DNA from: Treponema sp.
GTDB taxonomy: Bacteria; Spirochaetota; Spirochaetia; Treponematales; Breznakiellaceae
Length of the DNA stretch: 47,230 nt
NCBI GenBank assembly: GCA_031268975.1
Contig: JAIRWM010000017.1
Location: 1 to 47,230, forward strand
Direction of reading: 5' to 3'
Shown here: positions 33,460 through 34,970 of the stretch, piece by piece
How the letters are laid out: each line of letters starts with the position of its first letter
Position numbering within the stretch: position 1 is the first letter of the stretch
Program-made: the position numbers and the translations under genes
The notes under the pieces: model-generated
What the model saw: only the letters and a program-made list of their open reading frames with translations
What the model was told of the DNA's origin: nothing
Database searches by the model: none

Positions 33460-33915
33460 CTATGGAATCCAGATAAGCTTGTCCGGCTCCGATTCGTTTA
33501 TAAAAATTCTTTCGTAGCGGCCGGAATGTTCAACGCCGGGATTTTCGGGAAAATATGTTTTGCGGAAAAACCACAGTATGTCCGCCATTATCATCGCGGA
33601 ATTACACGGGGCGAAGCGGAACCATATCTCTTCATCTTCCAGGATTTTTTTCGCGGCGCTGTCGTTTGTAAGCTCCGGATCGGTCAGCCGGCGGATCTCC
33701 GTACGAAGGCCGCCGTAATGGGTTCTGCCCACCGTAAGCATGCGCAGATGTTTGTGATCGTCCATCCAGTAAATTTCGTACACACCCGCCACAGATGGAA
33801 CTTTGGCGTTAATGGCCCATCGATCCGCAATCGCCAGCGGCGACCATTTAATGGCATAGTGTATGTCTTTGCCTTTTTCCCGCGCGTATACGCCGTATTC
33901 GTCTAACCCGGACAT
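33460..33915 (-). CDS. Conserved-looking protein of unknown function
   Basis: 151 residues, no confident family. A segment PSVAGVYEIYW ... LRMLTVGRTHYGGLRTEIRR has the spacing of a GIY-YIG-like core (GVY, then T-V-G-R-T), followed by FAPCNSAMIMADILWFFRKTYFPENPG, where the family often has a helix and a conserved Asn; the catalytic Tyr/Arg/Glu set is not clearly complete. It is rich in Trp and charged residues, with no signal peptide or membrane segment, so likely cytoplasmic. The start has no strong ribosome binding site. It is the first gene of a two-gene unit with the YrdC-like protein. Confidence 0.65.
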   Translation of the reverse strand: MSGLDEYGVYAREKGKDIHYAIKWSPLAIADRWAINAKVPSVAGVYEIYWMDDHKHLRMLTVGRTHYGGLRTEIRRLTDPELTNDSAAKKILEDEEIWFRFAPCNSAMIMADILWFFRKTYFPENPGVEHSGRYERIFINESEPDKLIWIP

Positions 33916-34080
33916 GAGCTGACTATATCATGGATTTGTTATGTTTTCCATACACCCATCACCGGGAGATTGTATATATTTTCATACAGCAATGGTCTCT
34001 TTTTTTACCACATGGATAACCGCAATTCTATTTCCTTATGGTACAACAAATTAAAAATTATCCTCTGTTCGTGATAAAGT

Positions 34081-34097
34081 TGGCACGGTTTTTGCTA
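34081..34097 (+). promoter_or_regulatory. Sigma-54 (-24/-12) promoter of the rpoS-like gene
   Basis: TGGCAC-GGTTT-TTGCTA matches the RpoN consensus TGGCAC-N5-TTGCW at every position, with GG at 34082-34083 and GC at 34094-34095. A start of transcription near 34108 gives a leader of about 30 nt containing AGGAGG before the ATG at 34140. Confidence 0.85.
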
Positions 34098-34139
34098 CAG
34101 TATGACTGCGAGAATAGTTTTTGGTTCCAGGAGGAACAT

Positions 34140-34970
34140 ATGGGGATGCCTAGAAGCTCCGATGATCTTGTGGCGATGTATTTTGAACAGTTGAAGCGCT
34201 ATCCTCTCGTTTCCGTTGACGAAGAAAAGGATCTCGCGAAACGAATACAGAATGGAGACGCCGCCGCCCGCCGCCGGCTTATCGAAGCCAATCTCAGGCT
34301 TGTGATAAAAATCGCGAAGTCCTATCTTTCGTACGGGGTTTCTTTCATTGACCTCATTCAGGAGGGCAATCTGGGGCTTGTGCATGCCGTGGACAAGTTT
34401 GATCCCGCAAAGGGCGTGCATTTTTCCACGTACGCGAATTGGTGGATCCGCCAGGGTATTATCCGCTTTTTAACGGACAAGCGCCGGATGATACGGCTCC
34501 CGGCGCGCAAGGAAGAATTGCTTCGCAGGGTACAAAGGGCTTCCCAGACGTTAAGCCAAAAACTTTCCCGCAGCCCCAGTTCCGCCGAGCTGTCGGCGGC
34601 AGTCGGCGTTCCCGCCGGTGATATCAGCCTCATGCTTGCCGTTTCGGAAGGAATATCCTCTCTGGATGCGGCCGAAGAATGTTCCTCGACAACTCTTCTT
34701 GAAAACCTCGCGGATTATACGTACAACCCGGAACAGATCCTGGTAAGGAAAAATTCCCGCAGGGTTACTCTTGACATACTCGACCGTCTTAAAGAAAAAG
34801 AGAAAAACATTCTTGTACATCGTTACCGGCTTGGGGGTGGTGAATGTCATACTCTGAAGAAAATCAGCGATAAAATGGGTATCTCTCCCGAAACGGTACG
34901 GCAGATCGAAATGCGCGCCCTGAGGAAAATGCGGGAAAGCGCCGAGGAATTAAAGAGCTGCCTGGCGTAG
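34140..34970 (+). CDS. RpoS-like alternative sigma factor (sigma-70 family)
   Basis: 276 residues from ATG 34140, set by AGGAGG; in-frame codons upstream overlap the promoter. Region 1.2/2: SSDDLVAMYFEQLKRYPLVS, RRRLIEANLRLVIKIAKSY, DLIQEGNLGLVHAVDKFDP and FSTYANWWIRQGIIRFLTDK. Region 3: RSPSSAELSAAVGVP. Region 4: LDILDRLKEKEKNILVHRYR and a helix-turn-helix LKKISDKMGISPETVRQIEM. It lacks the long region 1.1 of the housekeeping factor. It directs core RNA polymerase to an alternative promoter set. A perfect sigma-54 promoter in front suggests an RpoN-to-RpoS relay like that known in Borrelia (the parallel is inference). Confidence 0.9.
   Translation: MGMPRSSDDLVAMYFEQLKRYPLVSVDEEKDLAKRIQNGDAAARRRLIEANLRLVIKIAKSYLSYGVSFIDLIQEGNLGLVHAVDKFDPAKGVHFSTYANWWIRQGIIRFLTDKRRMIRLPARKEELLRRVQRASQTLSQKLSRSPSSAELSAAVGVPAGDISLMLAVSEGISSLDAAEECSSTTLLENLADYTYNPEQILVRKNSRRVTLDILDRLKEKEKNILVHRYRLGGGECHTLKKISDKMGISPETVRQIEMRALRKMRESAEELKSCLA

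Follow-up and report, generated by a model that had tools for sequence, protein, structure and literature searches.

The closest described counterpart of the locus reported here is the Rrp2-RpoN-RpoS relay of Borrelia burgdorferi (BB0763, BB0450, BB0771), a need for BosR being counted among the traits of the Borrelia-type relay. The rpoS promoter of B. burgdorferi has been found by experiment to be RpoN-dependent (PMC1976401, PMC11109971), and it is the only promoter of the sigma-54 type that has been identified in this species (PMC11109971). Moreover, Borrelia Rrp2 is reported to act enhancer-independently (PMC1976401), and activation via Rrp2-RpoN-RpoS has been considered unique (PMC11109971). 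Leptospira employs an EbpA-RpoN system, in which sigma-54 and an activator have amtB as a target, and it is reported to be without RpoS (PMC12655853). No earlier report of the relay outside Borrelia was found in the literature, as far as open-access papers are concerned.

This paper describes a sigma factor gene of a termite-gut Treponema sp. and its upstream region, encountered in a stretch of DNA of 47,230 nucleotides, the whole of which is referred to as the window. Comparison of this locus with those of other spirochaetes makes it very probable that the gene is transcribed by RpoN as part of a conserved relay, a prediction in which promoter use and start site are inferred in the absence of expression data.

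Materials and Methods

The window corresponds to contig 13 of a draft genome of 2.78 Mb that is 93% complete. Comparisons were made with other genomes of its family, the named records of which include termite-gut Treponema MAGs, and with a phylum-wide sample (297 genomes). The names Breznakiellaceae, Treponemataceae, and Borreliaceae were inferred for the sampled families, which include about 20 further spirochaete families. Loci were picked by protein score with the promoter disregarded, and the counted set consisted of 145 distinct RpoS-clade genes from 24 families, after removal of duplicates and with sufficient upstream sequence required. The conservation counts are not independent, given the shared ancestry of related genomes, though families with diverged flanks have kept the site. 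With the exception of the sigma factors, gene names at sites in the window's own genome were read from translations without a family search.

Results

A sigma-54 promoter in front of the sigma gene

The locus comprises the following features:

33971..33988, no strand assigned: palindrome TGTATATATTTTCATACA, TGTAT-N8-ATACA, candidate UAS/enhancer, from dyad counting, no binding data
34081..34096, + strand: sigma-54 (-24/-12) promoter TGGCACGGTTTTTGCT, exact consensus, kept before 143 of 145 orthologues
34107 (+/- 1-2), + strand: predicted transcription start, about 12 nt past the GC, inferred from general sigma-54 geometry, no expression data
34129..34134, + strand: ribosome-binding site AGGAGG, from the sequence
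34140..34970, + strand: group-2 sigma-70-family gene, 276 aa, spirochaete RpoS, from its Pfam domains and its clade with Borrelia RpoS (support 100/99)

An initial annotation had proposed a perfect RpoN consensus before the sigma gene, and TGGCAC-GGTTT-TTGCTA (34081-34097, + strand) indeed matches the sigma-54 consensus exactly. Its GG (34082-83) and GC (34094-95) have the canonical 10-bp spacing, so that the definition of a sigma-54 promoter as GG-N10-GC within TGGCAC-N5-TTGCW is met, and TGGCAC is preceded by T and followed by G, as in the extended consensus. The proposed start is likewise borne out by the AGGAGG located 5 nt upstream of the ATG at 34140. The promoter had correctly been placed close to this start, although the gap measures 42 bp instead of 43. 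A longer open reading frame in the same frame would start at 34038, upstream of the promoter; the alignment of orthologues begins near 34140. Divergent from the sigma gene lies an open reading frame of 151 amino acids (33460-33915, - strand) without Pfam match but with GIY-YIG-like motifs (GVYEIYW, VGRT, GGL), and the same neighbor is found in two relatives (G014 and G016; L267, L298).

The sigma factor is orthologous to Borrelia RpoS

The protein encoded in the window contains regions 1.2, 2, 3, and 4 (PF00140, PF04542, PF04539, PF04545), and its best NCBIfam match is RpoS (TIGR02394), with 247.2 bits versus a curated cut-off of 378.7. In the phylogenetic tree, it shares a clade of 60 rows with Borrelia RpoS (support 100/99), apart from RpoS of E. 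coli, RpoD, and the other spirochaete sigma factors. The designation 'RpoS-like' is thus appropriate in the Borrelia sense and not for the proteobacterial equivalog (247 versus 379 bits); an RpoS of the proteobacterial type was ruled out by both the TIGR02394 cut-off and the tree. Borrelia has a long branch, and its placement immediately outside the clade formed by the remaining members, as their sister, was not rejected (p-AU 0.30). In a published neighbor-joining tree, Borrelia RpoS grouped broadly with homologues from diverse proteobacteria (PMC6719511).

Conservation of the promoter among spirochaetes

A sigma-54 site was observed before 143 of the 145 distinct RpoS-clade genes when up to two mismatches were allowed, before 131 with at most one mismatch, and in exact form before 65, the two exceptions being L124 and L181. 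After dinucleotide shuffling of the same upstream regions, sites with at most one or at most two mismatches were found in 0.1-0.4% and about 4-5%, respectively, and for the f1 set none of 35 matched downstream windows contained the site. In the aligned sites T, GG, and TGC are essentially invariant, as is the GG-N10-GC spacing, and position 7 is a G in 72%, in agreement with the extended consensus. The conserved GG/GC spacing that the initial annotation had asked for at orthologous genes was thereby found across 24 families. Borreliaceae served as positive control, with the site present in 9 of 9 cases; the family concerned (f6) is presumed to be Borreliaceae, the gene being located at about 810-840 kb of a 0.9-Mb main chromosome, as expected for rpoS (BB0771). 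The use of genomes of the same genus as a source of orthologues was given up, the two concerned (82% and 62% complete) having no direct one. The presence of a sigma-54 site before rpoS throughout the phylum makes the two-step switch look ancestral instead of an invention of the Lyme lineage. The suggestion that the cascade is older or wider than that lineage hence finds support in the conserved sites, the single sigma clade, and the presence of rpoN and Rrp2.

RpoN, its activators, and other sigma-54 sites

The window's own genome contains one copy of rpoN (PF04552, at C169), and the gene is present in 292 of the 297 genomes of the phylum. The search for sigma-54 activators that had been recommended along with that for rpoN was equally successful: five NtrC-type activators and one LevR-like activator were found, the Rrp2 orthologue among them, so that both rpoN and AAA+ activators are available in this genome. 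Exact TGGCAC-N5-TTGCW sites occur seven times, including those before the window sigma gene, a second sigma gene (C62), and an hsp20-like gene, and classic sigma-54 targets such as amtB are among those with near-exact sites. Such sites precede amtB, beside a GAF-type activator (L040, L002; C187), and an HPr/PTS gene, beside a LevR-like activator (L020, L007; C32).

The exact site before the gene for the Hsp20-like small heat-shock protein (L016, C152) suggests that RpoN may control a stress gene. At four of the seven exact motifs (L012, L014, L017, and L018, on C1, C23, C175, and C202), TTGCT is directly followed by a long (CT)n microsatellite, and the initially transcribed region would consequently be a slippage-prone repeat.

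The second, paralogous group-2 sigma gene (C62:19916-20701, - strand; L045/L345) encodes a protein that is 35% identical to the window sigma factor and belongs to another clade, and it has a perfect sigma-54 site of its own, TGGCACAGTTCTTGCT. The site was present in all 29 distinct family members of this clade with enough upstream sequence, and also in members from f2 and f12. Related genes of the second type in f28, f34, f36, f41, and f46 have no sigma-54 site and represent natural negatives. Close to the promoter, many family members of the second-sigma group carry a different palindrome, TAATTCCTTATA-N-TATAAGGAATTA, as judged by eye. Moreover, a sigma gene of the second type directly follows rrp2 in one genome (G202, L348) and lies at approximately 4 kb from it in another (G475, L342), by which Rrp2 is linked to sigma genes at the level of the genome.

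An Rrp2 orthologue and its adjacent kinase

One response-regulator activator (C209) is 53% identical to Borrelia Rrp2 and forms one clade with it (support 100/99), to which the window's own genome and nine others contribute exactly one protein each. A histidine-kinase gene is located directly upstream of rrp2 in the own genome, in six relatives (G141, G016, G306, G414, G242, G475), and in Borrelia, so that orthologue and neighboring kinase are both in place; the kinase match upstream of rrp2 is weaker in G202. The kinase-rrp2 pair is preceded by holB-like and CvpA-like genes in several families. Full-length Rrp2 orthologues with at least 53% identity were present in 31 of the 40 genomes tested. 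One of these is a genome of 1.1 Mb (G248) that looks like T. pallidum, in which rpoN has been kept and the Rrp2 orthologue is 59% identical, but which, judged by the count of matches, apparently has no RpoS-clade sigma factor; Rrp2 must therefore serve other genes there. In the alignment of Rrp2 recognition helices, the two Borreliaceae have IGRKTLHNK, and all eight proteins from outside Borrelia have IGRKTLHRK.

A palindrome at enhancer distance

Spaced-dyad counting detected GTAT-N8-ATAC in 50 of the family's 68 distinct upstream regions, versus 13 for the best shuffled dyad, with alignment columns outside the dyad near background. The center of the palindrome is located about 101-103 bp before TGGCAC (101 in the window, about 103 in the family). 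Exact copies at 60-137 bp before rpoS also occur in f2, f3, f5, f11, f14, f17, f18, f20, and f31, which brings the palindrome at enhancer distance to ten families, and none were found in the 9 Borreliaceae or before the 29 second-sigma genes. An activator site of a sigma-54-dependent promoter would be expected about 80-150 bp upstream, and the presence of the palindrome, at -101 from TGGCAC, suggests that the window's system may make use of an enhancer, for which binding data are lacking; the best reading of the palindrome appears to be that of a candidate enhancer in a relay that would be enhancer-equipped in many spirochaete lineages.

Comparison of 40 genomes related the palindrome to the activators. 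Rrp2 is present in 14 of the 15 genomes with the palindrome (at most one mismatch), the exception being an 85%-complete MAG (G252), and the palindrome was absent from all 8 other RpoS-bearing genomes without Rrp2, whereas the GAF-type activator co-occurs with the palindrome in 11 of the 15 and is absent from the remaining four. These co-occurrences make Rrp2 the better, albeit unproven, candidate binder. The link is only one-directional, because several Rrp2-bearing genomes (e.g., G302 and G254) have no recognizable palindrome. We therefore favor Rrp2 as the activator that works through the palindrome, but only modestly, its binding being inferred. A search for the activator by way of palindromes beside activator genes yielded a single imperfect match, upstream of a response-regulator activator in G016 that is not the Rrp2 orthologue, and was abandoned.

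Two other assignments of the palindrome appear unlikely but cannot be set aside. The promoter and the relay may be real while palindrome and activation belong to the GAF-type EBP (C7 in the own genome) and Rrp2 serves other genes; this EBP, which likewise has an invariant recognition helix, is found in 18 of the 40 genomes and, like the palindrome, is absent from Borrelia. Nevertheless, f18 and f31 genomes (G224, G246, G214) contain the palindrome and Rrp2 without a full-length GAF-type orthologue, and the N in the Borrelia Rrp2 recognition helix, where the other eight aligned proteins have R, matches the loss of the palindrome. Moreover, it is Rrp2 that activates rpoS in Borrelia (PMC4014564).

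Similarly improbable is that an unrelated regulator (a repressor or general activator) uses the palindrome as its operator, possibly serving the divergent neighbor, and that the promoter is enhancer-independent as reported for Borrelia. Perfect copies are present at only three places in the own genome, and the two others have no convincing sigma-54 site adjacent to them. Since copies are also found apart from sigma-54 sites, the palindrome could be bound by another kind of regulator. However, families without a divergent upstream gene (G202) retain the position at about 100 bp upstream, and at unrelated genes of two other genomes the palindrome is again paired with perfect sigma-54 sites.

Frequency of the motif

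Motif counting on its own was dropped as evidence, since the counts were at or below those of the controls: one match with at most one mismatch in the window versus 1.3 expected, and 35 matches in the whole genome, where the reversed control pattern gave 82. Chance alone would produce single matches, which makes the motif by itself weak evidence, so that the assignment of the promoter rests on context and conservation. A chance origin of the -24/-12 match, with the sigma gene using another promoter, would agree with these unremarkable counts, but this can practically be discarded, as it is already contradicted by conservation of the site at the same place in 143 of the 145 orthologues, and no sigma-70-like promoter was found on the + strand from 33900 to the gene.

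Discussion

The most probable course of events at this locus would be that RpoN-RNA polymerase transcribes the orthologue of Borrelia rpoS (34140-34970) from the promoter at 34081-34096. The closed complex would be opened through looping by an activator that occupies the palindrome (33971-33988). This activator would most likely be the Rrp2 orthologue (C209), which would receive its phosphate from the product of the kinase gene directly upstream, and the sigma factor produced would redirect RNA polymerase to a regulon of its own, the existence of which is inferred. Such an HK-Rrp2-RpoN-RpoS relay is probably ancestral to most Spirochaetota, with Borrelia having retained the relay and not the palindrome.

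A more far-reaching interpretation, to which we would give even chances, is that the Rrp2-RpoN-RpoS switch of the Lyme lineage is the stripped-down remnant of a phylum-wide module. Ancestrally, Rrp2 would have bound TGTAT-N8-ATACA before rpoS, and RpoN would have driven two group-2 sigma genes, each preceded by a palindrome of its own; Borreliaceae would have lost both the enhancer and the conserved arginine in the recognition helix of Rrp2.

Work on the cascade has been confined almost entirely to Borrelia, and sharing of the relay by most spirochaetes would give the Borrelia system an evolutionary origin. A shared relay, activator operon, and enhancer-like element would also open the way to culturable, non-pathogenic models. 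In addition, the long-standing question why Borrelia Rrp2 functions without a specific binding site would become testable.

Among known systems, sigma-S of E. coli has the group-2 sigma-70 architecture in common with the window sigma factor, but the latter is on a separate branch of the tree and below the RpoS equivalog cut-off; E. coli rpoS is not known to be a direct target of a sigma-54 relay of this kind. The EbpA-RpoN system of Leptospira shares a spirochaete sigma-54 with an activator and amtB as a target, but, with RpoS reportedly absent, it has no second step. The Rrp2-RpoN-RpoS system of B. burgdorferi shares the orthologous sigma factor, Rrp2 with its adjacent kinase, and a near-consensus -24/-12 element close to the rpoS start. 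Unlike Borreliaceae, in which none was seen, many other spirochaetes have a conserved palindrome at enhancer distance, and RpoN of the window's genome, in contrast to that of B. burgdorferi, has other likely targets, namely amtB, hsp20, and the second sigma gene.
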